Below are positions 1,551 through 34,768 of a DNA stretch of 64,000 bases, in pieces. Numbering within the stretch: the stretch's first letter is position 1; each line of letters begins with the position of its first letter. The position numbers and the translations under genes are program-made. The notes under the pieces were generated by a model, which did no database searches, had not been told where the DNA came from, and worked only from the letters and a program-made list of their open reading frames with translations. This DNA is from Strobilurus pachycystidiatus. Lineage: Eukaryota > Basidiomycota > Agaricomycetes > Agaricales > Physalacriaceae. The stretch covers positions 930,001 to 994,000 of the forward strand of contig JAHLMK010000012.1 of the NCBI GenBank assembly GCA_019915135.1, written 5' to 3'.

Positions 1551-1883
1551 TTCATCTCTATCGGATGAAGTTCATTCGGAGAAAGTACGTCCGCCCGTCA
1601 TTGTCTCATATTGGCACTGAAACAGGACACTACTGAGAGCGGAGCAGACGATAGTGTCCTAGACATCTTACCTGGGCGTCGCATGGATCTCGGAAAGCAC
1701 TCTGTTCTGCGAGTTCTGGCTCCGGTATACGCCAAATTTGAGAAAGTCGAGCTTGAGACATTCGAAAGTGAAGAGGCTTTTGCGCTGCTCAATATAAAGA
1801 GCATAGATTTGGGCATTGTCACATCAGATGGTCTTCGCGAGGATCTTGCTGCGGACCTTACGGGAGTGTCAGTCAACACGTAG
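1551..1883 (+). pseudogene. Orphan C-terminal exon of the NTPase-REase family
   Basis: An open frame ending at a TAG at 1881-1883 encodes the family's last-exon module: LPGRRMDLGKHSVLRVLAPV, then an acidic stretch and a LREDLAADLTG-like end. It matches the final exon of copy B (14523-14891) almost residue for residue over the LPGRR...LRV block. A splice-acceptor-like TTTCCTTTACAG ends at 1550. No P-loop, REase-like domain or other family exon lies upstream on this strand, where 1218-1550 shows nothing recognisable. I read this as the 3' remnant of a lost family member, not a functional gene. Confidence 0.6.
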
Positions 1884-2192
1884 TTGACTTTTACTGTCAG
1901 CCGTATGCCATGGTGGAAAGTTTTCTCGGCAGCCAATGATATCTGAATTCTATATCAGCTTTGTCCGTAAGTCCTTACACGGGGGCATTGGTCACACTGT
2001 CTGCGAATTTTGGTGAAAAGTGTCAGCTTTGATGGAGTCTGCCGTTGGCAGACTAAAAACATGGGCAATGTGCTCGCTATCATGTCATGTATCATACATT
2101 GCAACTAAATAATATGTATCTCAATCCTTTCTACAGCTACATTATGTCTGCGTACTTCGACAATTCTATGGACTACAAGAATGTGTCAATGA

Positions 2193-5100
2193 CTAAACGT
2201 CCGTCATTTCTACGTCGGTGTCTTCCGATTCCACTGTCGTCGACTCCGATTCCGAGTCTCCATCCCAAATTGACCTCTGTACCCGCCTTCCCCTCTGTGT
2301 TACCCCTTTCTTTTTATTCGGCTGCTTATTGGCTTCATCGCCCGCCTTCCTCTTTCTCTTTGCCCTTTGACCAGCATTGTAGTTGTCCACCCTGCGACGA
2401 GCCTTCTCTGCGTAGGCTTTCCGATAGTCTGCTAGAGCATTATTTGAATGCTCCTTAGCAGTAAGGGATTTGAATTTATCGTGTCTCAAGGTGGCCAAAG
2501 GGTGCTTGTCTAAATCCTTGGGTACGAGCTCTCGTCGTAATGTCGTAGCGAATGAACCGTCAGCATTCCTGTCAAAGGGCACCGATGGCCACGCACACAA
2601 GACCCGTAGCAGGTGGCACTTCCCGGTTCCTGGGGTCGGCGCTCCCAGCAGTCCATTCTCTAGTAATGCGCATGTCTGTTCAGGAAGGTCCGAAGACCAT
2701 ACAGGAGGGTGGTCCTGTGTAAGGTGAGGACAACATACAAATAGGATAAAATGTCGAATGCTCGCTCACCTTCACATTCCTGAAACGGAAGAAATTGCTC
2801 GGCGTGACGGATTTGATAGCGTTGGTGATTTTTTCAGAATTCATGCGTTGCCGCATGTGGCGATCAAACTTTGCTTGCACGGCGACCCACATGTAAGACA
2901 CATCAGTACTGTTGAACTTCTGCAGCTTCAACTGGAACAACAGATCGGGTCCCATGTAAATTCCTGGGAAGAGCATCGCCGCAGGCGTCTTCAGAGAATG
3001 CTGGATGAAGTCGTGCGTTCCAAGTGGTTCTGGAACGTAGACGCCACCCTCCAATCTGAAGTGCGCATTGCCGCCATTGTTGGCATTGTATCCCAGAGGG
3101 CCCGAAAATCCAGGACGCCAACCACTCGCGACGTGTGGGTCAGAAGTATAAGCTAAGCGAGAAAAATGATATTTTCCCAGCAATTTGCCTTGCGAATTAG
3201 GAAGGTGGTGCGTGGTGACGAGGGAGGCGTAGTATGAGCCCAAGTCTCGAAGTTCGTCGCTGTCCTCGTCTTCAGGGATGATTGGGATGACGGGCTTCAC
3301 TTTCCCCTTCCTGTCAACTTTGGGCAACTTCGCCTTACGAGGTTTTTCAGGCGACACTGGCACCTCAGGCTTGGGTTTAGGAGCGGGAGGAATGTAGATT
3401 TCGAAGACATCGGAAAGAGGTCGAGGCTTCTCAAAGGCAGAGGCAAAGTAGAAGGCAAGCAGATTCTCGAACATGTTGTTGTCATCTATGTGCATGGAGA
3501 TGTTTGATTGGATATGTTCGAAAAGCGAAGAATAGAAGTGCTCCTGAGGCTGCCGGCGCTGCCAGGTCTGAGCCCGAGGGGCAGACGGGTGGTGATTCAG
3601 TGAGCTAAGTATGGCAAACATCACCAAGGGCTCGCTGATTCGCAACTCATGGTGCGGGGAGCCATTTATAAGGAGACCAATCCCGAGACGAAGAAACTTC
3701 TGAGTTGCCTGAGTAAGCGATTCTGGAGCAATGCCTCGGATGAACCATTTGGTGATGTCACCGACGAGAGAATTCATGTCGGAGGGATCTACATGTTTGT
3801 CAAGCGCCAGCCGTTTGCGAAAGGAAAGCAGCTCACCAAGTGCCTGAACCGGTATACATTCGATGAGTGGCGGGTGAACGTCTTTAACGCTCATCGAGAA
3901 CTCGTCATGATGACTGTCATGACAGTCTTGAGGCTCGAACCCACCAGCTTTGATGACGAACATGTTCAAGAGGCTATTCGGGTCCTGGAAGCGATTCTGA
4001 AGTAAATATTGAATGAACGCAGCTGTCCATCAATGCCTATAGTATTCTCAGTTTTGGGCCGATTATAGCTAGCGCAAAACTCACCGTCCTCGTAGCCATA
4101 AGAACATTCTTTTGAGTAATATCTCCGTTTGCTTCGGAAGACCGTACGTGAGGGAAGGGGGAAGAAATTGGTGAACGTATTGCTGCTGTGATCCTCTCTC
4201 TTCGAAGGTTCCCGTGGCAACGAGTTCTTCAAATTGTCCATATTTCGCCATGAACGAACGAAGATTCGACTGAATATGGAGTTTCGAAAGACCAGATCCT
4301 GATATGATAAGATGGCCCTTTGCGAAGTCATTGTCGAACGCGAAGTGGGTAGCAATCCTTTTCAGTAATGGTCTCGTCCAGCGCTGTGGTGTAGTATCAT
4401 CCACACTGGAATCGAGAGTTTCGTCCGACGTATCCACGTTCATGACATCGTCCTCAACCTCGGAGTCGGACACCTGGCCATCGTCAGAGTATTGAGACTC
4501 TTCATCTGTGGGCGTAAATTTGTGCACATTGTGAGCTGCCCGCTTCGCAACGTCCGCAGACACGGACATCTGTTCATGGTGGGAATCAACAGCTGTCCAC
4601 ACAAACGACGATTCAGGCTCCAAAGGCTGAGGGGCAGAGATGTCGGGAGGAACGCTGTCCTCTGGATCGGCAAGGAAGGCGTCCGGCAGATAATTAGCTG
4701 CCTCTTGGGCTTCGTCGATGACAATCGGAAGGCCGACGTGGCAACCTTGCGGTTTGCCCAACAGCTTGGCAATGTGTCGGGAGACTTTATCGATGGAGAA
4801 ATTGAGAGGCTCGGGATTTCCGAAATTCTCGGGAAGGTATAGTTGCGATAGAGTCGCAAAAACGTCGGAAATCCCTGGCAGCTCCAGAAGATCTGGCTGT
4901 ATTTGGAGGAGCAGCCACCTCCTCCTGGCTTCGGGAAGGTGACGTTCTTCCACGGTGGAAAGAGCTCTCAAATAACAAGCAAACAGCTCGAGTCTCGCCC
5001 GAAGGACACAGAGCAACATGATTTCTGCAATCTTGCTGTTCATCACCTCCTGCTCTCTATCCCACTGGTTGAGATTCTTGACAACGAGGTGGCTCTTGAG

Positions 5101-5890
5101 CAGATACTGATAGCAGTCATAGATATCCCGAGAACCGATTTGTGGTGTCAGACTGTTTGTTGCAGAATCGGGTTTTCTGCACGTGAAGTATAGCCCGTAT
5201 TCAAGGCAGAGTGCTTCTAGGCATATTCTGGTCTTTCCCGACCCAGAAGCGTTGATGAAATGGCTGAGTAATGTCAGCTGGAAGAAGTTGATAGAGAGGC
5301 GCATACGTACCAGTGTCGCATACTAAGGTTAGGCAGTAATTTCTGTGCTAGTTCCGACAGCTCCTGGTTTCCAGATGCGCCCAGACGATGCAGAAGGAGA
5401 CTGGGAGATTCGTCGTTCTTCAGTCTGGGCAGTCCGAGGTGACGAAAGTGTTCAGAGTCACGAGGCTCTATACCTTTCCAATCTTCGTAGCCAGTCCATA
5501 GAGGAAGTTCAAGCGTGTTGAACTTCGCCTTCAACGTCTGGTGGAAGAGGTCCAAGAAATCTCTGGCAGCGTCTTGCGTTGGCACTCGATCCAACGGTCC
5601 TGATCCAATCTGAGTAGTAGTGTATATCCCCTGTCCAAATAGGAGACCGTCAACTACGTTTGAGTCAGTATGGCTGCGCATGAGAGCTGTTATAGCGGAC
5701 GCTTACCGAAATCTTGGGTCCATGTATTCTGATCCTTTTGGACTTTCCTGGTGAGGATTTGGACACTCTCAGGAGGAAGAGCTCTCGCGATGGCAAGGCG
5801 CTTGGCCGATGTGTCAAATCTGGGATCCAGTGGGTAGTACTCGACTAATTTACGAGCGAAGGTGTGAAAGACATGCTCAAAGTCCGACAT
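2193..5890 (-). CDS. Copy A: P-loop NTPase with intact-looking REase domain (Crinkler/RHS-like)
   Basis: About 1,150 residues in five exons. Exon 1 starts at 5890 (MSDFEHVFHTFARKLVEYY). The third exon opens just before the Walker A motif (FINASGSGKTR, near residue 185); Walker B is IVIDEAQ, followed by a roughly 100-residue acidic Ser/Asp insertion. The NTPase ends at WLRGR, where an intron falls. The C-terminal domain has SEPLVMFA, then FENLLAFYF, GPDLLF and MWVAVQAKF, which fit the E, D and QxK positions of a PD-(D/E)xK nuclease. The next intron is GTGAGC to ACACAG (about 2772-2715). The last exon carries GKCHLLRVLCAW and a Lys/Arg-rich, NLS-like tail (AKRKRKAG, NKKKG) before an acidic end. 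Crinkler/RHS proteins with this NTPase-nuclease order are described as nuclear effectors or transposon-derived proteins; the role here is unknown. Copy C is the closest relative. Confidence 0.75.
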
Positions 5891-6389
5891 TGTGATAAGG
5901 GCGATGAGAGATGGAAGTGTGAAGGATGTGGGACATACGCTGTAGCATTCTCAAGCTTTATACAAGTTGATTGTGGCGACTTTCTCCCTTACGACATCCT
6001 TGAACAATAACAATCCCCGATTCGTCTGAAAGCCTCAGCGCCGGGGTTAGGAGTCAAATGAAGAACAAAAGCTATACTCACGATGTACGTAGCCTTATAG
6101 ATCCGTCGATGTTAGCTGTGTTGCCAGGGTACTCAATGTCATAACTACGTTCTATCAGTGGGAACCCCGGCCTGATCAGTGCAATTGGCTGGACTTGGAA
6201 GTCGCTGTCAGACCTTGTCTACGCGTGGCCAGGCCAAGCCTTCAAGGAGAAGCTTAGCGAGTAATCTCGTCGGCAAGCCTGTAGTCAGCGTGTGGGCCAA
6301 CCTTCACGCGTCACGTCGGACACATCATTCTTCGACTGGCTGCCGGCACTGGGCAGCGCTCGCTCAATGTGATATGCGCCATACGATTA

Positions 6390-6989: not shown

Positions 6990-8863
6990 TACATACGATG
7001 CGCGGTCGGTGGCTGTCTTATCTTCGGGGGAAGGGTCACGCGGTGGGTAGCTTGAAAGTGTACATGGCTCACAGCAGTCTCACAGCTCTCGTTCAATACT
7101 AGCGTTTGATGTGATGCATTGACGCTTCTGGAAGGGCCAGTGGGTTGTGGGAAGTCGTGAAGACTTCTCGTTTGCGCGGAAATGTGAGACGAGTTGTCTC
7201 AAAACAATTGGAACTGCGTGGCTGCGTGGGAGATAACACAAACCGTACGGCGTACGCGTCCGTCCTGCGTCCGTCAGTGCGTCACCCGCCCTGGTGGTAC
7301 TTAAGTATTTGCCAAATTTAAATTAGCGCAAGACCCGGGGGCCGGCAGGGCGGCAGCCGGCTGGGCAAGGCTGCACGTGCACGTGGGAGGGCAGCAGACT
7401 GCAGACGTCCCATTGTCCAACACTGACACCAACAGTGACTGCGAAAGTGGTTGCCTATCTATGTATTCAGAGCTCTACAAACGCTTCTCTTCTGTCGAAA
7501 ACATCGCTTCTGCCTCTCGGCTTCTCTCTACGCTGCGGTCGCTCTCAAGCGATGACATAGCATTCACCAACGAGGACACTTGTCTCCAGTTTTTACGAAA
7601 TCACCCGTTATCGCATGAGATCCTTCGAGACGCTTTCAGTGACCAGTCCCTGGCATGCCTGGAAAGAACTTGTCAGTAAAAATCAGCTTCAATCATGAAT
7701 ACTAATCAGATCCCAACATATCAGCTTTACTGTCCGCTGATCCTGTTCATGAACACTGGTCAGACCGACCACAGCTTGCAGCGACTCGGGATCGATTACA
7801 GGAAATCAAGGCTTGTTTCGCGGAATCCAGATTTCCTCTCACTGTCTGGCCGGGCGTAACAGAGTCGTCTACTTCGGAAGCGCCGAACCCCTCCTGTCAA
7901 CAAACAGACACTGATCTCATAGCCCACGTTCGCAATTTGGGCATCCCTGTGCTTTCTGGCTTGCCCCTACTTCTCCTTCTTGATCTCGGCGGCTTTTCGC
8001 GCGACAAGGTACTCTCGAAACGAGTGCAGGGTTTGTTCGATGGTAGAAATAAGTAAGCATCATTCGCCTAATCGTATTGTGCTACTTGACAACAGGCTGC
8101 AGATTTCTCGTCAATGTATCGGGAGCTGGAAAGACGCGGCTTCTATACGAAGGTCTCTGCTTGAACTTGGGGATAATATTACCTGCCTTTTTGGACTACA
8201 CCGATCTCGGGGGCCCGCAACTCCAATTAATGGTAAAGAAATATCACAGGGACAATGGTTGGCCTCGCTATTGGGTTCTGGCGTATATTCGCCACCAGAG
8301 GCAGAATATATTCACTCGCGGGCCCATCGTTCGGCCAGCGAGATTCTCCTGATGCGCCTGTTGGTTCTAGAGGCATTCTTGGAGAGTGGTGCACCTGAAG
8401 ATGATGATAGAGAAAGGTTTTGGTTGTGCTATCAGTTGAACGAGGCTCTTGTGCACCCCCGATACAACAATTCCATGGGCGACCTGATGAGTAAAATCAG
8501 ACATTGGTACGCCGAAAACTGGTTCCTCGACGACGCAATTCACCACACGCTGGAAAACATCTTTGCGTTATGGCCGCCATCGTCTTCGAAGCCTCTATAC
8601 ATCGTTGTCGATGAAGCCAACGCGGTCGGGCGTCCTCTCCCATATCTTCGTGGTGCCGTGGGTGAAGAGTCGGGACATCCACTCTTGAAGGAAATTCTAC
8701 GCGTATGGCAGGGCCACACCAGAGACTTTGACGTTGCCTTTATTGTCGCCGGGACCGAGATCGACGAGAAGTTCTTTCCGCCAGACGATCCCGAGTGGAA
8801 TACATATTCCTGGACGTCAGACACTGGCAGTTTCGTCGAGTGCCCGTCTCTCCACAGAGCCTA

Positions 8864-9746
8864 TGTTACGACCTGATCCCGCCGTGACAAGGACTCGCTC
8901 ACGATGGCGCGCCTCTACGCTCCAACCGTGGCTTTCCTGCGGGCACAACACGCATATCTCCGGGACGCTTCCGTCCAGTCGCTTGGGAGGGATCGCGGAG
9001 GACCTCGACGGATGCTCCTCCGTATCGCCCAGAGAGTGAACACCCAGGAGACCCCGTCTCCTGGTGTCGCGCGCTTCATCGGACCCGATCCGAGATGTGG
9101 CGCATTGAGATCCTTCGTTCGAGGAGTGGGGGGCGATACCGGAGTCACCGAGGGAGGGCATGGGGGGAGCCCTTGCTCAGAGGGAGTCAGAGTATCCGGC
9201 AAGAGAATGCGGAAGGAAACTTGATAAGGACGAAGTCTGACTATCTACTACAAAGAGCGTCTGTATTTATACGTCGACCTCTTGATGAATAACTCCTCTT
9301 CTCGAAGGTTCCGTCGGGAGCGCTCCCGACGCGTCGGGAGCGATGTGCTGCGGTAGCGCATGGTACCTTTGATCGAGCAAGGAAGGCGCGCTAGATCGAG
9401 CACCGCTGATTGGACGATGGGCGGGATAAGGCGGGATGAAGCGGGATAGGGCGGGCCGCCGCCCATGCCATGCGGGACTGATCAGAAGATAGCGATCATT
9501 GAGTCATTCCTCGACCCAATGGGGCGTCGCTCGTACGGAGTGGCGGGAATCGAGGGAGGCGGCCGACGGATGTGACGTTGGTCCGGCTAGCGAGGCGCGG
9601 CGAGGCGCGTAGGGATCTGATCGCGTTCCATCGGCAACTCCCGTGATGGCGCGACCTGTTCTTCGGGATAAGTTCTCTCCTGTGTGGCGCACCCAATCTA
9701 TAGTTCGTGCGCGATCTCGTGACAGGTCCACGACCGAGTCATGACA
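8864..9746 (-). repeat. LTR (3' LTR in element orientation)
   Basis: This is an 883 bp copy of the repeat at 12494-13376, offset by 3,630 bp. It contains a perfect 18-bp palindrome (9313-9330, GTCGGGAGCGCTCCCGAC) followed by a second GTCGGGAGCG, and a short GGCGGGAT(A/G)A tandem array at about 9418-9456. Both lie in the U3 part. Confidence 0.85.
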
Positions 9747-9759
9747 ATATCCCCTCTTT
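9747..9759 (-). other. Polypurine tract
   Basis: On the minus strand the 13 bases before the 3' LTR are AAAGAGGGGATAT. They are purine-rich and abut the LTR, as expected for the plus-strand primer. This supports minus-strand orientation of the element. Confidence 0.65.
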
Positions 9760-10534
9760 AAGTTTCTCGTCCCGAGAAACGTAAGAGGAGCTTCCGTGGG
9801 CAGCGCCTTTTCGATTTTGGGAAAGGACCAAGTCCGAGTCGGACATTCAGTCGAGTCATCCCCAACGTGACGGGCGTCATACTCCTGGGGATTCTCTGGG
9901 GAATCCCCCGTCCAGTGCTGATTTTGGTGGAGACCGAAAGTTTAATGGACAAGGGCCCGCACGTTCGTTGGTTTCTTGATACGAGCCCAAGGCTGTGCGC
10001 TTCTTTTAGCTGTGACTTCTTTCGGGTACAATGCGGGTCCCTGGATTTGAGTGGGTTACAGGCGCGTTCGTCACATGGCCGTGCACGCCTCTTCACGCCG
10101 GGAGGCCTCTCCGCTTGGTATAGGACAGTCCGAATAGAGTGGTGGCGTAGGCATCCCGTCGTACTCCAGCGATTTCCCGACGCCTGATTTCGTCAAGGCG
10201 CCTTATCAATGATCGCCGTTCCCTAGAGATCTGTTTGGAACGCCGCGCGCTCAGACCCCGATGTCGTTAACTTCTGCCGATGGCATTTTCTCATACTGGA
10301 TCGTCCTTTTCGAGGACGGTAATTTCCTAATCCAGCGGAAGTTCTTAGCGCGCCTCCGTCGAATATATGTCGAGAATCCGGTTCGTCCCAACTGTCCAAA
10401 GCTTAAAGTTTTCTGATTCGGGAATCGTCCTGATTCTGGGGGATGGGAAGGTAATTCCCGGCAGGGCCTCCAGGAAGGGATTGGAGTACAAAAACTCTTT
10501 CTGCGTCCAATTCCTTCCTCATTCCTTTCCTGCC

Positions 10535-11472
10535 ATGTCGTCCGTGTCTTCGTTGTTGCGCTCGCCCACTCGCTCGCCCGCTCCTCCGCGGGTGTCTACC
10601 CCTCGTCGTTTGAGCACTCTCTTCGTGTCGGCCCCGCTGGTGGTCAACGGAATTCGTTTGCTGTCCCGGGACGGTTTCCTGGTTTGGGTACGAGGTGATA
10701 TTGCTCGCCCTTCACCCGCGATCGTGGAGGCCTGGTCGCGCTGCGTCGGTTGCATAACCGAGGCCCTCCGAATGGCCTCGACATCGTCGAAAGAGATTAC
10801 TGATCCCTTGGTATGGGCTTCACTAGTAAGCCTCTTTTCCTTTTGGCCCCGAGGTTGGTTTTAACGGAGTCGTTTTCCTAGTTCGTCCTGTTTCGCTCAT
10901 CGATCGCACATTTGGGGAAGGTGTTCTTTCGTCCGCCCTTGTCGTGGTGGGCTTTGACGCGCCCGTCTCCTTCGGCTACCCTGCGGGCGTTCTCGACCTG
11001 TGCTTGGCTCCTGTTCGCCCCTCACGGTGTGGTTTTCGTCTATCGCCTCGCGATACTTTACTAACCGGGATGTTTTCCTTGGACTTTTTTTTTTTTAGTC
11101 AATGCCTTTCCTGGGTCGGCGCCGGACACGACGATGTACTGTGTCGACGCCTTCGACCTCATCCTTCGCTATCTTTGGGATCACCTCTCCATCCGTCGCC
11201 TCATCGCCATCCTTTGGGCGTCGGAGCGGGATCCGGCCATTGCCGCCTGTTTTCATGAGTTCATGACTGCGGAGGAGACCCCAGGATCGGCGACCCGTTG
11301 GAACATGACTTTTGAGGAGTGGTCCCGGTCGATGGACTCGGCGCAGGGTTGGTGAGGGATGTGGTCGCTTCGAGGGGATGTCGTGGGGATTTTTTGAATG
11401 CATAGGTACGGGCATGGACCCAATACGTCTTCGATAGTAGTTCTCGATCCGCGCCTCTTGTACTTTTTATAA
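10535..11472 (+). CDS. Putative intron-containing gene on the strand opposite to the retrotransposon
   Basis: From an ATG at 10535 after a pyrimidine-rich leader, an open frame (MSSVSSLLRSPTRSPAPPRV) can be joined through three introns: 10826-10881 (GTAAGC/CTAG), 11027-11098 (GTGTGG/TTTAG, with a perfect TACTAAC branch point) and 11352-11405 (GTGAGG/ATAG). It ends at 11470-11472, about 250 residues in all. The third exon has a plausible globular stretch (MYCVDAFDLILRYLWDH, then WNMTFEEWS). No family recognised. The strand is opposite to element transcription, so its introns would survive retrotransposition. The second donor is weak and the model is tentative. Confidence 0.35.
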
Positions 11473-11834
11473 ATCTATGCACCTGTCTTGATGTCGTCGG
11501 GTGTTGGTCGAGCGAGGAGACAATTCTCCTAGTTCGAGGACCTTTGGTGAGGCGTCGGAACTTGTCGCGTTCGCGCGTCGCGATCGACTGATTGCAACGC
11601 GGTTCGTGGGATCGGGCCCTCGGCCCTGATCGCCGAGTGGTTGGGTTACCGCTTCCGCTGGGTGGGAGCCCTCTATTTCTCTTCGCGTTTTCCAGTTCGA
11701 CCTCCCCGAGGTTCTGAGGACCGTCTTTCGTTACGCGGGGCCCTGTCGAATTGCCTAATTATCTGAGTCCTGGGTTGTCCGTGCCGAATAAATGTTGTTT
11801 CCGAAAATGGGGGGGGCGCGTTGCGCGAAACCCA

Positions 11835-12791
11835 TCAGTCCTCTTTTTCGTCGAGGAAGAATACAACGTCGTCGACGTAGTGAATTTCGCGCCAGACGCT
11901 GTTGGAAGGGTTTCGAGCATTGCGTCTTTGTAAACGGGAACGACGTTGGAGTTCCTTTGAGAGAGGATTATAACGAACCACTCCATTACTAGTCAATGGT
12001 GATTCGATTGAGTATATCGGTTCGATGTGAAGTTCTCTGATGAACCCAGGGGACCGTATTCGTCGAAGGGGTTTCTCCAGGTAGCACTGGGAGAAATGGT
12101 GCAGGTGTCGTCGGGTTCGTCGTTGCGAGGCGGGGAGGTGTCCCCCGGATATCTGTGAGAATGTTGCCAGGGCAAGTGTATACCCTTTTACAAAGGAACG
12201 GAGGAGGGGCCAGTCCTCTACTGTTCGAGATATTTGGTGGACCACGTCCATTATCCGTAGTACCCTTCGTGCTACTTCTAGGTGGGGTGGTGTCCCCTCC
12301 TCTTCGTCGCGTAAGATCGTCACCTGAGAGGAGACATATCGGAGTTGGGAGAATAACCGGATGTCGGTTTGGTCGAGTGGATCGAGGGAGGGAGCTTCGT
12401 GCGAGGTGGTGCTGAGTACCAGAGTAGTTGTTGTGAACGGGCCTTGAGTTATTGATATGGTGTTGTACGGGCAGTAGGGAGACTTCGTCCTATTGTTACG
12501 ACCTGATCCCGCCGTGACAAGGACTCGCTCACGATGGCGCGCCTCTACGCTCCAACCGTGGCTTTCCTGCGGGCACAACACGCATATCTCCGGGACGCTT
12601 CCGTCCAGTCGCTTGGGAGGGATCGCGGAGGACCTCGACGGATGCTCCTCCGTATCGCCCAGAGAGTGAACACCCAGGAGACCCCGTCTCCTGGTGTCGC
12701 GCGCTTCATCGGACCCGATCCGAGATGTGGCGCATTGAGATCCTTCGTTCGAGGAGTGGGGGGCGATACCGGAGTCACCGAGGGAGGGCAT
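11835..12791 (-). CDS. LTR-initiated ORF of the retrotransposon, function unknown
   Basis: A 318-codon ORF starts at the first ATG of the predicted transcript, 77 nt after the presumed start site. It runs through U5, across the primer-binding site and on to a stop at 11835. The first 99 or so residues are LTR-encoded. The remainder is Arg/His/Leu-rich with no CCHC zinc knuckle, protease or polymerase motif. A gag-like role is possible by position (yeast Ty1 gag also starts inside its LTR) but not shown. The closing HYVDDVVFF resembles an RT active-site box only by chance, as no surrounding RT motifs exist. Confidence 0.4.
   Translation of the reverse strand: MPSLGDSGIAPHSSNEGSQCATSRIGSDEARDTRRRGLLGVHSLGDTEEHPSRSSAIPPKRLDGSVPEICVLCPQESHGWSVEARHRERVLVTAGSGRNNRTKSPYCPYNTISITQGPFTTTTLVLSTTSHEAPSLDPLDQTDIRLFSQLRYVSSQVTILRDEEEGTPPHLEVARRVLRIMDVVHQISRTVEDWPLLRSFVKGYTLALATFSQISGGHLPASQRRTRRHLHHFSQCYLEKPLRRIRSPGFIRELHIEPIYSIESPLTSNGVVRYNPLSKELQRRSRLQRRNARNPSNSVWREIHYVDDVVFFLDEKED
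12480..12491 (-). other. Primer-binding site complementary to the element's own RNA 5' end
   Basis: Read on the minus strand this is AGGACGAAGTCT, starting 2 nt after the LTR end. It is exactly complementary to AGACTTCGTCCT at 12868-12857 within the LTR, which the TATA box places at the RNA 5' end. No tRNA-like TGG start is present. The arrangement is the self-priming one known for Tf1/sushi-type Ty3/gypsy elements. Confidence 0.65.
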
Positions 12792-13376
12792 GGGGGGAGC
12801 CCTTGCTCAGAGGGAGTCAGAGTATCCGGCAAGAGAATGCGGAAGGAAACTTGATAAGGACGAAGTCTGACTATCTACTACAAAGAGCGTCTGTATTTAT
12901 ACGTCGACCTCTTGATGAATAACTCCTCTTCTCGAAGGTTCCGTCGGGAGCGCTCCCGACGCGTCGGGAGCGATGTGCTGCGGTAGCGCATGGTACCTTT
13001 GATCGAGCAAGGAAGGCGCGCTAGATCGAGCACCGCTGATTGGACGATGGGCGGGATAAGGCGGGATGAAGCGGGATAGGGCGGGCCGCCGCCCATGCCA
13101 TGCGGGACTGATCAGAAGATAGCGATCATTGAGTCATTCCTCGACCCAATGGGGCGTCGCTCGTACGGAGTGGCGGGAATCGAGGGAGGCGGCCGACGGA
13201 TGTGACGTTGGTCCGGCTAGCGAGGCGCGGCGAGGCGCGTAGGGATCTGATCGCGTTCCATCGGCAACTCCCGTGATGGCGCGACCTGTTCTTCGGGATA
13301 AGTTCTCTCCTGTGTGGCGCACCCAATCTATAGTTCGTGCGCGATCTCGTGACAGGTCCACGACCGAGTCATGACA
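12494..13376 (-). repeat. LTR (5' LTR in element orientation)
   Basis: This repeat drives transcription toward lower coordinates. The U3 part is about 13376-12869, with a TATA box at 12901-12894. R/U5 runs from about 12868 to 12494 and contains the first ATG of the transcript, at 12791. Confidence 0.85.
12894..12901 (-). promoter_or_regulatory. TATA box of the retrotransposon
   Basis: TATAAATA on the minus strand, with its first base 33 nt upstream of 12868. That base opens the segment complementary to the primer-binding site, which fixes the likely transcription start at or near 12868. Confidence 0.6.
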
Positions 13377-15094
13377 GCCTACATCGAACGACTACTCTCT
13401 CCTGCCTTATTAAATGATGATTATTGGGGGAATTTTGTCAATCGGGTGACCGTTTGGCTGCGAGGACGGTGAGATTCGTGTTTCCTGGGGTCGACCTATG
13501 CCATAACTCTTCCCAGACACCGATGGACCGCTGCCCTCATGATGGAATTGCTGCTGCACCGATTCCAAGCGCCTCATCGCCTCCTTGATACATTGCTACA
13601 CCGTTTTTCTAATTATACCCCTCATGATCAAGCTTACATCTTGGAAGAAAAGGACGTACGCGTAGAACTGGGGCCCTTCGAGCCTCTGGGATTTGACCTT
13701 GAGCTCAACAGGAGTAAGCGCAGCGATGTTCGTATGCTTGGAATGTGTTACTCATTGCTTGAAAGATAAAGTCTCATTCGCCACCGTCAGCGACAGCCTC
13801 ATAAACACTTTGGTCTGTCCAAAAATACCGCTGGTCTTTGGTCGTGATAGAATACGTGTAGTCAACGTCGGTCTCGGTCGCTTCAGTGACGGTGCTCTGG
13901 AGTGCGTCGTTGTCGACGAGGTAATTCCTTTGCTTGCTGCAGCGTCGTGGTTTGTGAAGCTGCGACGCTTGTTCTGCGATCCAGAGGTGTACCTCTTCGG
14001 AAATTATCGACCCTACAGGAATGCACTGGGCGTCGCGAAATTCGTCGCCCTTCGTCTGTTGCATGCCTTCAGCGATGATCAGGCACTTGCGGACATCTTG
14101 TCATTTCCCCGTGGCGCACCTTCTTGGGCTGAACAGCTCTCATGGCTGGTGCGTTTGGAGAAAGACTTCAAAGGCGACATTCTTGCCAAGCGATATCGCT
14201 ACGCGCCTGGCACATACGCGGAGCATCTTACAGTTTCGACGGATAACAAGACCACCGAAGCTTGGATTCGAGACGGCAGCACGGTATTCTGTTTGCACAG
14301 TGACATCTCCTCGCCAACGTCGCCGACGCTGCTTTTTGCTGTGCAGATGGCGGATGGGTCCACATGCTGGATTGCGCTACAGGTCCTGTTGGTTGACTCT
14401 GACCTTGTGTTGTCAGAGCTTTCGACGCTGCTGAAAGACTGGGATCCCACCTTGATGTTCAAGGATGTTAGTAGGCCCTTCCCATCTTTTGGATTCTGCA
14501 TCCACGAGTGACTATGCTCTAGACGACGTCTGCCACATCGGAGAAAGAGGCATCGGAGAAAGATGCATCGGAAAAAGATACATCGGAGGAGGTCGCTGTA
14601 GAGGTGGCGTACTTCATGCTTCCGTCACGAGCAACTCTAACCAGAAGTCAGGGCGACGAGGATAATTGCGCATACGACGTGCTACCAGGGCGTCGTAAGG
14701 ACCTCGGAAAACACTCTGTCCTACGAGTCGTAGCCCCAGTCTACGCCGAAGTGGGGATGCTTGAGATTGACGCGGTGGAGGAACCGAACTTCGCCCTTCT
14801 TGAGGTGCGATGGCTCAGTTCGGCACGCGTTTCACCGGAAAGCCTTCGTCAAGATGTTGCTGTCAATTTCACAGGAATACCGGCAGCATAATAGACTGCC
14901 CGATTTCCTATAATTCACAATGTAAGTCCTTTCAGTATACAGGCTCGTCATTACCCTCTTCGTTTGTAACAATAACATCGCTTTATCAACCAAAATGTGC
15001 CGTTCTGAGACACCAACCCAAAAGCTGCGATCCGGTCATTAAATGTATGAGGACTCGTATTCAGTCCTTTCATCCAGAAAGAGATGTACAATTG

Positions 15095-21414: not shown

Positions 21415-21484
21415 CGACTTCACCGTACAGATTGATTGCTAGACGAATTTTACACGTACGCAGAGCTGTGATTTGGAAATGATA

Positions 21485-25313: not shown

Positions 25314-28300
25314 TCATTCTCGTCGACTGACTATTTTGGACCTCTTTGGAGAAGGACCTTCCAAGCTGTCACTGTCAATAGGCCGACGGTCTCGTGCACC
25401 TAACTTCAATGATTTTTCTACAGGTTTCGCTATGGCCGTAATCTTCGCTACAAGATCCTTCATGATGTCCTCCGAGGATATGTCCTGTGTGGTGGCATTC
25501 AGGCCCTCCAAGTCGAGGAGCGCCCAAGAGCCGTCCATCTCGGGCGGCGTGTTATAATCGTGTCGCATTGTGGCAGAGACTGATGCAAGCACCCGAAGTA
25601 TCGGCCACTCTCCCAAACCGTCCCGACACCCAGGAAGCCCAGACAAATCACCAGGTGTTATGCATGGCTCGCTCTGTCAAGCAAGATCAGTGATTGAGAG
25701 AAGGTAGATTGGTCTGATCATACATGTTTGCGAGAGCGTATTGAAGACAGGCCGGCTTGCTCACTACTCGGTTCAGACTGAAATGTGTCGTTGTACTGAG
25801 TATCCTTAGCAAGAGAGAATCGAGACAAAGAACCAGTCAACAAACCTGTGGCCGGAACAAAGCTGACGGGCTCATGTCTTGCAACGCTTCAAGTTGACTT
25901 AGTTCATTGTCACTAAGGGCAGCGTCTGCAGGCCCTAGTAGCACCCGAAGTGCAACCCAGACACTTGTGTTGTCGTGCAACTCGACGGCGAAGAGAAGTG
26001 TAGGGTGCTGCGATGGCGGGGAATGGATACAGAACACGGCCTTTTTCTCGCCCTTGATCCATGATAGCGTATCCGTCAGATTCGTCGAGATGAAAGATAA
26101 AGGTTGTCGGGACTCTCCCAGGACATAATCCAAGTACAGCGGCTCGCCATCGGCCTCAACTTCGTCCAATCGCTGGGGAAACAGAAGTTTGACGGGGTGT
26201 TCAGCCCAAGGAGGAGGACGATCCTTGAACAGGAAGAAGTACGAGAAAAAGAGGGGGGAAGATAACGCTTGCGTCAGGCAAAGACCAATGAAGATAGTAC
26301 TGGGCAGCGTTTCCTTGAACTCTCTGAAGGCTGCTGAGAAGTAGTAGGTGGTGTCCAATATGGGCAACTTTTTGGTCATGAAGCGGTTGACGACAATGAC
26401 TAGTATCAGAGGCTCGTCAATAGCTATTCTTTGCATGTCGTCATCCACGAATCGGCCTATGCCTTTGCTAACCAGGGGGATCTTTTCGGGCCCAAAGAGA
26501 AGAGGTGTATCACAGCCCAGTAGAGTGTGGACAAGAGCGTCGTGACAGGCAGAGATGGCCATAGGCACTAACGAAAACGTTATCATGAATTGGAGCTTGA
26601 AACCAAAAGACAGGACTGACGATGTTCGGGAAGTTTGAGGGCGTCAAGCTGAGGTGCATACGCAGTCTCACGGTCGAAGTGCTCAAACTTCGGTTCATAT
26701 TGCTCGCAGTGGTCATCGGGGTGATATTGAGTGAACGCCTTGATGTAAGCATTGAGGACATAGTTGGGTGCCTTGTATTTGAATCCGAGGATTCGTGCCA
26801 TCAAGGCAGCCGTGAAACGATGCCTTACATGTTTGGCGTCAGATCGCAGTGTTGCTCGAGTTGGTGTGCTCACCGGCCATGCAACCATCTCGTCGCTCGT
26901 TGGACGAAGAGTTCTCCCCAGGGCTCCTGAACGAAACTTGGAGGAAGGAATTGTTCGATATATGCCTTGTGTCTAGTCGCTTCCACGAACCCTCCCGTGT
27001 CGGAGCACCAGCGGTAGGTAGACCAGTCTGCATCATCACAAGGAAAGCAGCTGCGGTCCACCTCCGTTCCGGCTACGACAAAGGTCACATTGAAGCTTTT
27101 CGTATGCGAGTGCCAGACACGCAAGATCTCTGTGAGAAGGGGACGGCCTCGGTCATCCTCACCAGGATCATAGAACACGGCGGGTAGAGGAGTCCTCGTA
27201 GCGACATTAGCCTCGTCAAGAGTGATAAATAGTGATTCAGAGGCTAGAACAGGCGCAAGTGCGAAGATCTCCTCGAGTGTTTGCCGAATCGCATCATCGA
27301 GGAACCAGTTATCGACGCGCCAATCGTCGATGAGTGTTTCGAGATTCTGCAACGTCGACCCAAGATCCTCTCGTAAGAGTGTCGCCTTAAGTTGGAAACA
27401 GAGCCAAAGGCGCTTATGGTCTTCACAATGACCCAACGACTGCGAGGTTTTCAGGAAGAGTTTCAAGAGTAGTAGGCGGGCCAACAAGAGTTGACTGGCG
27501 CTACGTCGAGCCAATACGTGGCTGTACTCTCGCCGCACTTGAGGCGTGTACGCGTGACCTGTGGGAAGAGAGGGCGCCCACATGTTGAATTTTGGCACGA
27601 AGGATTGGTTGAATCCGGAGTGTCCCAGCCCCGTTGTATCTTTGTGACACGTGAAATACAGCCCCCAGTTTCGACAAAGCCCTTCAAAAAGCAGTCTCGT
27701 TTTTCCAGAGGCAGAGACGTTCACTAAGAATCTGAGAAGAAGTGAGGCACAAAGACAGATGGAATGAACATCGACGTACGTATGTTTGCGGGGTACAAAG
27801 ATGGAATCCACACGTTCGCGAAGAGCAGCGTCCCTGCCGAATCCACCCAAGTCATGTAGCAGCAGTTTGGGCGCAAACTCTCTGCCATCATAAGTGTTCG
27901 GTATGTTCAGATCATGGACGTGTGCCAACGCGTCTGCGTCAAGAGCATCTTTGTCGCGTGGTAGCCAATGGTGTGGTGGGAAAGGCACAGAAGACAGAAC
28001 ATTCTTTACGAGCTCTTCAGTATCCTCAATGAACTTAACAGTGCTCGAGAGATGAGTTCGATTCTGCCATCGCTCTTTTGGAGGGTCATCGGAAAGAAGG
28101 GCTGTACAAGGCATGATTGAGTTGAGATCACGTAGAATTGAGAATGCGCACAAGTTCCTTCCAAGTGATCCAGTTGTCTTTCTATCAGCGTATCGAGAAG
28201 AAGACGGTGTAGAAGCGGCTGCTCTGCGAGCAGTTTAGTGGCGTTCTCGAGGGACAGATGTGAGCCAGAGATACTACGAAGCGTAACCAGCAGCGCCGCT

Positions 28301-28359
28301 GCATCCGACACGACACGTATATCGCAATGCTTATCGTATATCCACGACTCGATGATCAT
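25314..28359 (-). CDS. Copy E: P-loop NTPase with REase-like domain lacking catalytic residues
   Basis: The start at 28359 gives MIIESWIYDKHCDIRVV. The N-terminal exon ends LEGT at a phase-1 intron, as in B, D, F and G. Exon 2 contains HDLGGFGRDAALRERV. The P-loop exon opens FLVNVSASGKTRLLFEG, with Walker B FITLDEAN, VVAGTEVD and the NTPase end RWLHGR (His where siblings have Arg). Later exons carry HRFTAALMARILGF, LFGPEKIPLVSKGIGRFVDD, AIDEPLILVIVV, LLFAVELHDN and VWVALRVLL (no QxK). The last exon has LGEWPILRVLASV and an NLS-like end (GPSPKRSKIVSRRE). No frame break was noticed. Copy F is the closest relative and is divergently transcribed from the next gene start, 158 bp away. Confidence 0.75.
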
Positions 28360-28517: not shown

Positions 28518-31500
28518 ATGTACGTTCATGATTCGTTCTACGAACAGACCCTCCACCACTACGACGTCGATAGTGCTGCGGAGATATTGACTGCTCTTCG
28601 CCGTTTAGTCGGTGACCCTGTTGCGTTCCTTGACGTGGAGAGGTGCTCGAGGTTTCTGCTCGATAACCCAGTGTCGCATTTGCTCCTCAAAAACGCGTGG
28701 AACGCTAAATCTCTACACCTACTTGAAGGGACTTGTGCGTCTATCCTTGTGCTCTGCCATTCCCCAGAACCAAATGTTTCTCTAGCTCTACTATGCGATC
28801 ATCCCACGAAGCAGCATTGGAGAGACAGAACCCAGTCATCCGCTACCATCGCGTACCTTGGTGAGATGGCAGACAAAGTAGTGGCCTGTCTTTCTTGCAC
28901 TTTCCCCCCCGGTGGGATATGGACGCCCTCGGGCGAACAAATCGAGACGGATATATTGGACCACATCCGAGGATTGGCCATTCCGCAGGTTTTCGCTCGC
29001 CCAGACCCCGATCCAATCATGCAGCTCCATGATCTTGGTAGCTTTAGTCAGGATCCGGTCCTACGTCGTCGACTGGAGGATATCTTTCAGCCGAAGCATC
29101 ACACGTTTGTGAATCTTCGCCATATATCTGACTTGCTTGACTCTATTTCAATGCAGATTTCTCGTAAACGTATCTGCTTCAGGGAAAACCCGGCTTTTGT
29201 ACGAAGGGCTCTGTGGTCATTGGGGCCTTCACTTCACGTTCGCCGTCGACGACACCATGATAGGTCAATGGGACCTACCAACCTTTCTCAAGCATTTCAC
29301 CGAGATAGACTTCATACGTGGTTTACCCTCCAAGAAACGACAACCACCCTTTGTTTCGCCGTCATACAGTCGTCTTCTCGCCCATCGTGGAGCCAGTGAG
29401 CTACTCCTAGCTCGACTTCTTATCTTCAAGCTTTTCCTGGAAACGTCGATAGCTACTGGGGAAAGCAATGATCACAAGCGGCTCTGGTTGTGCTTTCAGC
29501 TGGAAGATCAGTTCTTTGGCCCAGAACTCTCTGATGCCATTTTGAAAATGAGGAAACTCATCGAACGGTGGTACGCTGACAACTGGTTCCTCGACGACGC
29601 TATACATCAGACATTGGAAGAAATATTCACTTTACGCAGCTCGCTTTCCACTGACTCTCTTTTCATCGCCATCGACGAGGCAAACTGCGGGATGACATAT
29701 CCGTCTCCCGTCATGTTCAGAGACTCTGATTCTGACGTCCGCGGATTACCTGTGCTCAAAGAGCTGCTTCGCATCTGGCATTCCCATACCAGAGCCTTTC
29801 AAGTCACCTTCATAGTAGCGGGCACGAGAATCGATAGAGACTGTTTCTCCTCAGACGATCCGGATTGGGGTTCTTACCGGTGGTGCTCCAATACGGGCGA
29901 CTTCATGCAAGATGAAGCGAGACACAGGGCTTATGTCGAACGCTTTTTCCCGCCTCGTATATTACGGGAACCATGGGGTGCCCTTTGTGTGCGAAGGATG
30001 CTGAGATGGCTTCGGGGGAGGTACGAATTCTATCTCCATGTCTGCGTCACCCATCTAACAATCTTCTCAGATATCGTTTTACGGCAGCTTTCATCGGACA
30101 GCTGTTGGCTGGTGGCTTTAAATCGCCCAACTTCTCGTTGAACCATTACATCCATCAGATGGCCACTTATAAACCTACGGATCACCGATCCGACTACGAG
30201 CCAAAGACGATTTTTGAAACCCCCCAGTTTAGAACCGCTAGCCTATCAGTGGAGGAATGTATGTCCTGCTCTGTTTTGTTTCACACTTTGAAGCCTTATC
30301 GTTTGACCTTAATAGGGCCTGTGACATTCTCTGCCTGTTACGACGCTCTTCTCTATGCTCTTATAGATTGCGATCGACCCCTCATCTTTACTGGAGCTGA
30401 CAAAATCGAGGTTGTCAGCCGAGGATTGGGACGGTTCGTCGATGATGGCATGCAACAGATTGTCATCAATGAGCCGCTGATGCTTGTCCTCATTTGCCAG
30501 TGGTTTGTCAACAACAGCAAACCCATCCTAGATGCTACCATGTACAACTCCCCTCTATACCGCAAGTTTCGAGTCCGTCTATCATCGCCGGCCTTCCTCG
30601 TTCTGGCCATCGCACGGTCGTTCCGGGATCAAACCAGCCTTTCCAGTTTCTTGCGTTTCCACCCTTGTATTCCCGGATGGGCTCTATCTACCTCGCGCTT
30701 GTTCTCGCCGTCTCTTGAATGCAAGGATGATGAAGAGCGTCCGTTCTTTGCCTACATTCCGGGAGAGCACCCTCGGAAACTCGCGTATCTCTCCGACAGC
30801 ATAGAAGACACCTTGACCTGGATGAAAGGAGATAATCCGTCGCTCTTTTGTATCCATGCTCCGCCAGCCGAGAAACCTATTGTGCTGTGTGCCGTTGTGC
30901 TATATGATAAAAACGCCATCTGGATTGCACTACAGGACCCGTCTGACGCGAAGGGGTCAATGTCCGACGCCGTACTCAAGGGAGCTTTTGATGCGCTGAC
31001 CCCTGCAAGCATATTCACTGGCAACGCTGAGGTGTGATCGGTTCACTTTGTATGAGTATGGGATCCCTCTGATGTTCTTTTTTAGACTGCAGACACCTCT
31101 GAAGCTGCATCGCCAAGCGAAGTGCGGTCCTTATTGCCGAGTCAAATCCGATTCTTACTGTTCTCGCAGGCTTCGTCGTCACAATGTTATATGTCTGCGT
31201 TCCAACGCCTGCCACAGCGGAGCACCGGCATCGGGGAATGCTCACTTCTGCGGGTTGTCGCTCCACTGTGCACCGAGCTTGAACTCGAGACATTCGTCTT
31301 TTCTGATGATGACTCTCTTGTCGCTACCCTCAATGTCTCTAAACTCGATGCCCTCAACAGCAAGGTCTCTTCTGCCAATCTGTTCGATGACCTCCTTGTC
31401 AGAATCACAGGTGTCCCGAAGCGCGCAAAGCGGAGACGACGACATGCCATGGCGGGAGCAAAGCCAAGTAAGAGTTCACGAAAGAGACCGTCACCCGACG

Positions 31501-31544
31501 TTGCTGGTGGATCGACAGCCAAGAAGTCGAGGTCCGACGTCTGA
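28518..31544 (+). CDS. Copy F: P-loop NTPase with REase-like domain lacking catalytic residues
   Basis: The start at 28518 gives MYVHDSFYEQTLHHYDVDSA. The N-terminal exon ends LEGT at GTGCGT. Exon 2 ends HHT before a GTTTGT donor. The P-loop exon opens FLVNVSASGKTRLLYEG near 29156 and contains FIAIDEAN (Walker B) and IVAGTRID, ending WLRGR about 30020. Then come YRFTAAFIGQLLAGGF, FTGADKIEVVSRGLGRFVDD, VINEPLMLVLIC, LCAVVLYDKN and IWIALQDPSD (aspartate where the active-type lysine would be). The last exon, after an intron from 31033, has IGECSLLRVVAPL and a strongly basic tail (KRAKRRRRHA, SSRKRPS, KKSRSDV). No disabling change was seen. It is convergent with copy G. Confidence 0.75.
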
Positions 31545-31971
31545 ACGGCTGTGGTTGAGATGCTGCGATCGGTTTGTATGAACACATTGACATACTGTTT
31601 TTTTCCTCTCTCATAGCTTTCGCTCAATTCTTGCTGCTTCTCCTTCGGATGCTTTTACTTGCACTTACAGTTTTGCATCTGCGGTCGCATAACTTCGCGT
31701 ATTCACAACACAGTACGATAGATCTTGTTCTAACAATAGATCTCGTTCTATTCTCAACAGTATTCTGTTTGCGCATCTGAGAAGCGACAGCAGCAATAGC
31801 GAACAGTCTGTCGTACATCAAGAGTCAAGCAGAGACCTACCTATATATCTGGTCAGCCGTGGGAAGCAGGAGGAATGAAGAGAGGCAAAGGATGTAGGGA
31901 CGAGGCGGACGAAGAAAACGAGGCCAAGAGTCAGTAAGGTTCATGGTCAGAAGGTCGAGACGACGTTGCTC

Positions 31972-34768
31972 TCAAGCATTGGCTGCAATGTCCTGCAGGA
32001 TGTCATCTGGAGAAACTTTCGATGACAACTCCTCGAGTTTCTTCATGTTGAGAACCGCGCATGGCGAGTCGTCATACAATGAGCCAACTGTAGATGTTGA
32101 CCCATCAAACATTGGTACCAGAACCCGAACAAATGAGAACTCTCCGACGTCTTCTCGGCGATTTGGAAGGTTCTCAAAGGACGTCGAGATGGGATTCACT
32201 CGAGAGGAGCTGTGTCTCGTCCTCCTAGAAGACGAGGGAACCTTTCAATCGACATAAGTTTGGACCAAGATAGAAAGACTGCCTTGACGCACGTTCATGA
32301 TGCACTGTGGATGCATATCTTCGAAAACCTTGTCCGTATTGCAGGCAGCTAAGTCGTGAAGAATCTTCATGGCGATCCAGAGAGTAGTGTTATCCGCTAA
32401 CTGAACCGGAAAAATGACGAGTGGAGATGCCGATGCAGCGTTGTGTTTACAGAAAGGCGCCAACTCGTTCGGCTCCTTGAGCCAGTGCGAAGTGTATCGA
32501 GTGCTCTGCGACGAATAAAGAAGGTCCATCGGTGTTCCTGGAGTGTAGGAAATGAAAGAGCACTTCAGTTTGTCGTTTCGAAGACGATGGCGTCGTACAA
32601 GGCGTGCGTCCTGATGAGCCCAGTCTGGGACTCTCGAGAACGTGAGAAGATTGGATGACCTGCAAGGTCTAGACAGAGCGTGGAAAAGGGAAAGGACGAC
32701 GGCTGAGACGGAACCCGCCACAGTCCGAAAAGGTCGAAATTCCGGGCGCCTATAGTACGACAAGGCCGAGATAGGAACGCGCCGCTTTTTGAACCACTCA
32801 GCGGCTGCCAAGAGTACAAGCGGTTCATCGATTGTGAGTTCCTGCATTCCTGAGTCTACGAAGCGGCCAAGACCCTTGTTGACAATGCGGACTCTGCCGG
32901 GACCGAAGACAAGATCATGGTGAGGATATACAAGATGATGAATGAGGCAGTCATGTATGGTGGCAAGTGTCATTGCGTCTGCGAGCGAGATAAGTGACTA
33001 TCACCGACAACAAAAGAATCGCTTTCGCACCGAGGCGTTCCGGAATGTCAAACGAGTGGTAGAAATTCAAGGTCGGTTTGTCTTCCTCGAGAAACCTCTT
33101 CTCATCCGTGGGGACGAAGTTCGTGAAATTCTGTATGTACAGATTGAGAAGTTGATGAGGAGCACGAAAGCCTTGTCTCAGCAATTCTGAAAGGAACGCA
33201 GCAGTGAAACGATGACTGTTTGGGGTAACGATGAGACTTATGAAGTGGCCATCTGCCAAAACTTACCGGCCTCTGAGCCATCTGCACATGCGCTTCGTGA
33301 GTACTTGTCCAGACCTGCTTCTGCTTAACGCGGGAGGCAGGAAACAACGTATATACTCCTCTTGTTGACTTCGATCCTGGTAGAAGTCGCCAATATTAGA
33401 GCTCCAACGGAAAGACTCCCATTCATCGTCCGAGAAGTATTCTCGTGTTATCTCGGTCCCTGCAACGATGTAGGTGACATCAAAGTCTTTGGTGTGACGA
33501 CGCCATATTCGCAGAAGCTCCTCCAGAATGGGCATTCCCTCCTCATCATCTACAGACACCTTTAAATTCGCACTGCGCCGCGTAAAAACATTGGCTTCGT
33601 CAATGACGATGAAGAGAGATTCCCGCGAAGCTGGTCTCCGTATCTGAAAAATTGCTTCGAGCACTTCGTGGATGGCTTGATCCAAGACCTTGTTCTCGAG
33701 GTATGCAGATGCGATATGGCGTGAAATATCCGAAAGGATCTCATCGGAATCGACATCTAGAATCTTTTCTTTCAGCTGCAAGCAAAGCCAGAGTCGCCTG
33801 TGGGCGTGAGAGTTACCACTCGCCATCGAGATTTCTATAAATTTCCAGAAGAGGACAAGGCGGGCAAACAATATTTGGCTAGCCTCCATGTGAGCCCTGT
33901 CGCGGACATATCGAATTCGAGATGAAGGAGGTATAGACGGATTCGTCATGATACCATACGAGTCAGGATGTTGACCTGGCGGGAAAAGCCGCGGAAAAAC
34001 ATCCAGGTCGTCGGTTCCTAGGCTTGTGGAATCCATCTTGCAGGTCAAATAAAAACCCCATTGTTGACAAAGGCCTTCGTACAGTAATTTCGTTTTTCCA
34101 GTCGCGGATGCATTGACCAGAAATCTGAACTGATTGTAAGCCAGCGGTAGCGCAGGAACGAGTACAACATACGTGTCAACGTGCGCCGTGAACAGATCGA
34201 TGACCTTTTCATTTAGAGTAGGATTGAAGGCAAAACCACCAAGGTTATGCAAGAGCATGACCGGCATAACAACGTCCACTCGAGGAATCTGCAGGCTTCG
34301 CACATGAGCGGCTGTTCGAGCACCGACGCTGACCGACGGTTCCCAAACTGGCCCAGGAGGATATCGTTTGTGCTGGAGAGCGGTTTGGATGAACCTCTCC
34401 GCCGTCGGGAGGAATTCTACGAGTGAAGAGAGTAAAGGGTTGACAGTCCAGTGTCTCTTCGGTGGATTGTCGCTGACGAGAGCTGGGGAGCGCAGGGAGC
34501 GTAGTCAGCAGGGCAAAATTGCGAGTAGATTCCTGCACGTACAAGTCTCAGCCACCTTGTGCAGTACTTTGCGGAGGCGCCATCCTCGTAGACACCAACA
34601 CAGCATAGGATTGTTATACAAAAGCTGGTAGCAAAAATCGGGTTCGGTGCATGGCTTGTCATGTATAATCTGCTCGCGAAGCATGACAGCTAAACGAGAA
34701 GCATCTCGGATATCGGAGGTGAAAGAAAATTCCTCGTATATCTCAGGGCCAACTTTGAGGATAGTCAT
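31972..34768 (-). CDS. Copy G: P-loop NTPase with REase-like domain lacking catalytic residues
   Basis: The start at 34768 gives MTILKVGPEIYEEFSF. Exon 2 holds HVRSLQIPRVDVVMP and HNLGGFAFNPTLNEKV. The P-loop exon opens FLVNASATGKTKLLYEG, has FIVIDEAN (Walker B) and IVAGTEIT, and ends WLRGR at about 33263. Later exons: HRFTAAFLSELLRQGFRAPH, LVFGPGRVRIVNKGLGRFVD, TIDEPLVLLAAAEWF, IFPVQLADNTTLWIAMKIL (no QxK). The final intron is best read as GTGCGT to GATTGAAAG, which keeps frame into a Ser/Arg stretch and VGEFSFVRVLVPM, ending ILQDIAANA at 31972. There is no basic tail after that module. Closest to copy D. It diverges from the MYND gene with 171 bp between starts. Confidence 0.72.

Follow-up and report, generated by a model that had tools for sequence, protein, structure and literature searches.

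What is a mushroom doing with a row of genes that join a nucleoside triphosphatase (NTPase) to a nuclease-like domain, most of which lack the nuclease active site? The question is raised by a stretch of 64,000 nucleotides from Strobilurus pachycystidiatus, referred to below as the window (contig JAHLMK010000012.1 of assembly GCA_019915135.1, here called C12, positions 930001-994000; genome of 51.8 Mb in 61 contigs). An island at window positions 1626-34768 carries seven members of a family combining an NTPase with a restriction endonuclease (REase)-like domain, plus one orphan last exon. The original prediction, made from the letters alone, had placed seven genes and an orphan exon with common motifs at these coordinates, and this was confirmed. 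Within the family, a live branch can be told apart from an old, nuclease-dead one, and this division is the finding worth following.

Exon models were assembled manually, using the family alignment and GT-AG introns of 46-68 nt. Open spliced models were obtained for five of the seven 'large genes' that had been predicted (G4, G5, G6, G7 and G8; Table 1). The other two are damaged: in G1, a TGA at 4030-4032 interrupts the frame between the NTPase and REase exons, and G2 is split by a retroelement and has in addition lost its frame ahead of the insert, owing to a frameshift or an unrecognized intron. The P-loop NxS/AxxGKT and the Walker B motif DEAN/DEAQ were found in 7/7 genes. By eye, the (W/Y)LRGR block was seen in six of the seven (G6 reads WLHGR), the EP of the EPxxLxxA block in six (G2 reads DEVIPLLAA) and LRV in 7/8 when the orphan exon is included (G8 reads FVRVLV). 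The family relationship across the island is not due to chance. Single queries with G8 and G4 recovered other copies at E values down to 1e-89 and 1e-48, respectively, and family profiles matched the main exons at 1e-34 or better (G4-G8 themselves being among the profile members).

Live and dead branches of the family

Copies were counted by genome protein searches, for which G8, G4 and P0022 (a Coprinopsis protein) served as queries, and by profile searches of the loci. The cluster runs past the window, and the genome contains 18 NTPase-bearing copies: 13 on C12 (816-965 kb), two on contig C8, one on C5 and two on C1. A fragment on C5 (1497 kb), a remnant on C8 (783 kb) and the orphan exon G3 come in addition. 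Walker A is kept in all copies, as GKS in one. The nuclease active site, E..D..QxK, is kept in all four A-type copies (G1, G4, C12 868 kb and C1 3587 kb), whose Walker B is DEAQ. The residues E, D and K are absent from all 14 B-type copies (G2, G5-G8 and nine elsewhere; in the 921 kb copy the alignment has a gap at K), whose Walker B is DEAN. Within the window, the active site is thus missing in five of seven genes. The four residues (EDQK) were kept in 42 of the 65 database proteins scored, a count that left out P0008, which consists of two fused copies; P0065 had no REase match.

A tree was made from the NTPase domain alone, with 83 rows including 12 of the 14 B-type copies (the broken G2 and 921 kb copies were omitted). 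The protein searches behind it were word-limited (7994-7998 candidates scored), so that copies per species are lower bounds. The nearest relatives found were Hymenopellis radicata proteins. All B-type copies in the tree fell into one dead clade of 31 rows (support 99/97), together with proteins of Hymenopellis, Armillaria, Moniliophthora, Marasmius, Lentinula, Termitomyces, Mycena and Roridomyces; EDQK was found in 0/17 of its scored outside rows. The B-type loss is old, because this clade, common to several families of Agaricales, reaches Mycena, Lentinula, Marasmius, Moniliophthora, Armillaria, Hymenopellis and Termitomyces. The live A-type copies grouped with Hymenopellis P0001 (5 rows, support 100/99). 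A third clade, the C-type (38 rows, support 99/98), is mostly live and conserved in Agaricales: EDQK was present in 35/37 scored rows, and the remaining two (P0052 and P0062) have a gap at D.

The live/dead labelling required one change over 76 labelled rows, seven rows being unlabelled and P0008 being labelled dead from a motif search alone. When P0061 (Pluteus), P0064 (Schizophyllum) and P0067 were counted dead, four changes over 81 rows were required, and six when P0052 and P0062 were added. The B-type copies thus have a single loss in common, and some further losses lie elsewhere. A single active-site loss for the whole family was set aside, given the four to six changes, as was separate decay in each B-type copy, given the shared clade and the substitution ratios below. 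A quick tree had placed the Mycena-type rows apart from the B-type, and the careful tree united both. Placement is unsure for the long branches P0002-P0005, P0058, P0061, P0064, P0066, P0067 and G1.

Several rows deserve a separate mention. Walker B type tracks the nuclease state in the genome of the window, but not in the Mycena-type dead rows. Five of these (P0032, P0040, P0043, P0046 and P0049) keep DEAQ and the active-site D and lack E and K, as if, judging from these residues, the active site had decayed stepwise, ahead of the Walker B change. P0064 (Schizophyllum commune) and P0067 lie outside the dead clade with an incomplete E, D, Q, K set, possibly through separate active-site losses. 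P0008 (Moniliophthora roreri, 1380 aa) has two family copies head to tail with two DEAN motifs, and this fusion could stem from merged annotations.

The dead domain is under constraint. The ratio of nonsynonymous to synonymous substitution (dN/dS) was measurable in two close pairs, most other pairs being saturated. In the C8 pair it was 0.25 for the dead nuclease exon, compared with 0.18 for the NTPase exon; the dead exon of G2 against the 918 kb copy gave 0.30. Because of the values of 0.25-0.30, the dead domain seems to be retained for a role other than cutting. It could be asked whether the array is a relic of former transposon or nuclease genes, with functionless, drifting B-type copies. 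The G1 stop, the insertion and lost frame of G2, the orphan G3, the C5 1497 kb fragment and the in-frame stop of the 921 kb B-type copy speak for such decay. It is nevertheless improbable, as the main exons are open in 12/14 B-type copies, dN/dS is 0.18-0.30 in both measurable pairs, and the dead clade is common to several families of Agaricales.

The B-type copies are mostly old and are not the product of a recent, transposon-driven burst. Mean pairwise identity among B-type copies was 44% in the NTPase exon (12 copies) and 34% in the nuclease exon (14 copies), 18 of 19 pairs listed had a dS that was saturated or >1, and two genes of Hymenopellis branch within the B-type group. A single pair is young: G2 shares 89% identity with the 918 kb copy, at dS 0.17.

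Fold, location and known systems

The family order is a helical N-terminus, an NTPase of ORC/Cdc6-STAND type, a probable winged helix and a C-terminal domain of PD-(D/E)XK type. By structure comparison, the NTPase fold and the Walker A and B motifs fit the ORC/Cdc6-STAND-TnsC class. The top VIA-align rows for the NTPase were ORC subunits, and its structural neighbours include CED-4, plant NLRs and Avs3/Avs4; whole-model Foldseek rows also include mitoribosomal small-subunit proteins, RdrA and p97. The C-terminus is probably PD-(D/E)XK-like, as suggested by the motif, seen in the A-type, and by weak fold rows. In the predicted model of the G4 REase domain (mbb5c8ad0f2dd), residues 1-93 gave winged-helix regulators among the structural rows and residues 81-372 gave nuclease rows, together with the non-nuclease rows 8a4c and 8igg; all were weak. 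Foldseek on the nuclease domain and a PDB sequence search led to nothing. Pfam, NCBIfam and PADLOC scans gave sub-threshold or chance-level matches only, and hmmscan of the five open models at E up to 5 returned only AAA_22, in one model. The LRV motif, predicted as a separate final module, lies on the final long beta strand that is predicted for the nuclease domain (786-794 in the P0022 model) and was rejected as a module of its own.

C-type genes occur about once per species across Agaricales, with two species showing two rows each (lower bounds). The mean tree path was 0.79 for C-type (34 rows), 1.78 for the B-type copies of this genome (12) and 2.56 for A-type (5), in sets that are unlike in make-up and undated; single paths were 1.73 from G4 to Hymenopellis P0001 and 0.89 from G5 to P0007. 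The A-type looks the fastest-evolving branch. The original prediction had stated that these are not housekeeping genes. This was too strong: because Agaricales have a conserved branch with about one gene per species, a housekeeping origin is possible. The family would then supply Agaricales with an ORC-like DNA-binding ATPase that works in replication or repair, and B-type proteins would be its non-catalytic subunits. The slow evolution of the C-type (38 rows) and the ORC subunits at the top of the VIA-align rows agree with such a task. It is unlikely as an account of the island, where A- and B-type copies diverge fast, cluster and include pseudogenes; no C-type copy was found in the genome apart from the A/B loci, into which 47/47 P0022 matches fall.

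Basic motifs were found at the C-terminus of 34/34 C-type rows examined. The basic tail that had been predicted to follow the NTPase and the REase-like domain is present in G1 (KRKRK-type), G4, G6 and G7 and absent in G5 and G8; the order of the two domains was as predicted. A crude hydropathy test gave no N-terminal hydrophobic stretch above the cut-off in 33/34 C-type rows and in four of five window models; the fifth, G6, scored slightly over the cut-off (1.87). From these features the proteins are probably nuclear. A secreted effector is unlikely, because there is no clear signal peptide by this crude test and the C-terminal tails are often basic.

The likeness to Crinkler effectors was weighed feature by feature. 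Many of the mushrooms in which the family was found are not known to be pathogens. The NTPase of the CR proteins is said to have been placed in the CDC6/ORC1-STAND class by Zhang and co-workers. The review PMC5289972 gives the CR proteins of Zhang et al. 2016 as NTPase, helix-turn-helix (HTH) and REase, and reports a proposal of transposon-linked ancestry. The island family agrees with them in this order, in NTPase class and in being multi-copy. The C-terminal NTPase, HTH and REase of CR effectors all have counterparts here, the structural rows for HTH and REase being all weak. In contrast to CR proteins, the family showed no clear secretion signal by the crude test and no Ubl/Crinkler header: PF20147 had no match in 5/5 open models (a genome-wide PF20147 search was also without match, but its controls were silent too). 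Most copies are nuclease-dead and belong to one old clade, and a slow branch occurs about once per species. 'Crinkler-like architecture' is a fair description and 'Crinkler effector' is not. That these are secreted or translocated effectors of Crinkler type is very improbable: the shared domain order (PMC5289972) is set against the missing header, the N-termini mostly without a hydrophobic stretch and the spread through many mushrooms that are not known to be pathogens.

The membership of the RHS family that had also been proposed was not upheld, as PF07999 (RHSP) had no match in the five open models nor anywhere in the island. Trypanosomatid RHS proteins form multi-copy clusters, have a P-loop NTPase and carry retroelement insertions within members. 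The island family resembles them in being clustered, in its P-loop NTPase and in the retroelement inside one member, and differs by lacking a PF07999 match. Two sub-threshold RHSP matches were seen outside the island (L034, C23:514605; L035, C5:675870), which are perhaps another NTPase family of this genome.

The Avs proteins 8dgc and 8dgf, STAND NTPases carrying PD-(D/E)XK nucleases, are like the island family in having a STAND-type NTPase and a nuclease in one chain, and Avs proteins are among its structural neighbours. They are unlike it in being bacterial antiphage proteins, with a different domain order and with sensor repeats. In Tn7-type elements, TnsC (AAA+) and the nuclease TnsA are, unlike here, separate proteins in a transposon. 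An alternative reading of the island is a defence in which the diverse B-type copies would sense intruding DNA or proteins through an NTP switch and activate a few A-type nucleases, the intruders envisaged being transposons, viruses and foreign nuclei. By analogy, sensor NLRs pass the signal to helper NLRs. B-type copies are indeed numerous and diverse (14 against four A-type), the NTPase resembles STAND signalling ATPases (CED-4, plant NLR and Avs3/Avs4 rows), and the young insertion in G2 indicates that elements are active in the genome. Still, this arrangement is doubtful, since no TPR, LRR or ankyrin sensor repeat was matched in the five open models and the A-type, which as executor should be conserved, appears to evolve fastest (in sets unlike in make-up and undated).

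The island and its neighbours

Table 1. Features of the window (window coordinates; neighbouring genes included)
Feature	Position	Strand	Remarks
G3, orphan last exon of B-type gene	1626-1883	+	start is an AG seen by eye
G1, A-type, nuclease residues kept	2193-5890	-	5 exons; E, D, Q, K; DEAQ
G2, B-type, nuclease-dead	7461-14891	+	split by LTR element; pieces kept apart
LTR retroelement inside G2	8864-13376		LTRs 8864-9746 and 12494-13376, identical over 883 bp
Bystin gene	15157-16023	-	PF05291, E 1e-39 for 15157-15603
G4, A-type, nuclease-competent by motif	17822-21414	+	open six-exon model, 1113 aa
G5, B-type, nuclease-dead	21485-24347	-	open model, 852 aa
G6, B-type, nuclease-dead	25314-28359	-	open model, 908 aa
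G7, B-type, nuclease-dead	28518-31544	+	open model, 920 aa; basic tail
G8, B-type, nuclease-dead	31972-34768	-	open model, 844 aa
VWA-domain gene	37289-38731	+	ordinary-looking
MnmE/TrmE GTPase gene	49012-49617	-	ordinary-looking
DUF7025 gene	55838-56491	-	ordinary-looking
Ankyrin-repeat gene	58253-60304	+	ordinary-looking

Within 350 bp of each A-type copy of the genome (4/4) lies a B-type copy or what remains of one. Three of these sets are tail-to-tail: G4 and G5 with 70 bp between stop codons, the 864 kb B-type and 868 kb A-type copies of C12 with 46 bp, and the orphan exon G3 and G1 with 309 bp. The A/B pair on C1 is head-to-tail, at most 194 bp apart. When four A labels were placed on 20 units, 80 of 4845 arrangements did equally well (p 0.017, in a post hoc test); this weakens to 0.07 at 500 bp and 0.12 at 1100 bp, two gaps being estimated. 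For the Hymenopellis proteins P0001 (live) and P0007 (dead), the contigs given are of equal length. The orientations of the seven genes, which had been described as alternating, are mixed (-, +, +, -, -, +, -). G3 encodes the stretch forming the last nuclease-domain strand, and its product is 49% identical to the G2 last exon over 73 aa (E 2e-20). Neither the flanking sequence L033 nor window 1-1551 gave an NTPase or REase profile match at E 1e-3.

The insertion of the long terminal repeat (LTR) element in G2 is young, because both LTRs are identical (883 bp, 0 differences). It is flanked by a 5-bp target-site duplication, GCCTA, at 8859-8863 and 13377-13381. Genome-wide, at least 40 sequences match the LTR over nearly its full length, with 93-100% identity, both G2 LTRs counted (40 of 218 candidates scored). 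The element is repeated and apparently unrelated to the NTPase-REase family, and nothing was seen linking the LTR family to the spread of that family. The predicted local expansion with mobile elements stands as far as clustering and the element itself are concerned; a recent burst and a tie of the element to the spread found no support. No transposase family was found in the window open reading frames scanned (sets of 10, 5 and 10), and an Rfam scan of the window led to nothing. The bystin gene lies inside the island, between G2 and G4.

Proposed function and meaning

There are two readings in which B-type acts on A-type. The one that we favour, with a probability of about 0.4, is that A- and C-type proteins are NTP-gated nucleases, that nuclease-dead B-type partners restrain or aim them, and that the cluster reflects conflict. 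The family would be Agaricomycete and probably nuclear, with an NTPase that probably oligomerises on NTP binding. A-type proteins and the conserved C-type, seen in most Agaricales covered, would be NTP-gated DNA endonucleases. B-type would be an old lineage in which the active site was lost and the NTPase and nuclease-derived domain were kept. Its members would most likely be regulatory partners of the live A-type, either as constituents of mixed NTPase oligomers or as competitors for a shared DNA or target. The nuclease would in this way be restrained or aimed, and intragenomic or internuclear conflict may be reflected in the expanded, fast-evolving cluster. Sequence and computation show the architecture, the live/dead split, the old loss common to all B-type copies in the tree, the constraint and the close A/B neighbourhood; that the substrate is DNA, that the proteins are nuclear and oligomerise, that B-type inhibits and that conflict is the role are inferred.

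The second is an antidote system, in which live A-type proteins would kill or harm nuclei or spores without the haplotype and the old nuclease-dead B-type paralogues, many of them tail-to-tail neighbours of a live copy, would be the antidotes. It is modelled on Spok because a nuclease-dead Spok version can keep resistance. According to passages in PMC6660238 and PMC9972908, the Spok spore killers of Podospora need a PD-(D/E)XK nuclease for killing, with DNA damage, and nuclease-dead Spok3 loses killing and keeps resistance; Spok is nuclear and lies in large blocks at differing places between strains. Spok is a different family of unrelated architecture, with a kinase-like resistance domain; these passages name no NTPase. 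No kinase family was found in the Pfam scan of the five open models. By this analogy antidotes are conceivable, though the reading is rather unlikely.

Nuclease-fused STAND-type NTPases are known in conflict systems. Here, an expanded family falls into two branches, one live and the other old, under selection and nuclease-dead; no description of this family in basidiomycetes was found in the literature covered, which left most subscription papers outside. Each live copy in the genome adjoins a dead copy or remnant, and such a pair can be used to ask whether the dead paralogue controls the live one. The C-type gene of Coprinopsis cinerea, CC1G_02623, is an entry point for genetics, as this species is a laboratory mushroom. 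Mushroom cells carry two nuclei for most of life. If the dead paralogue controls the live one, this would bear on the policing of nuclei, spores or mobile DNA in mushrooms.
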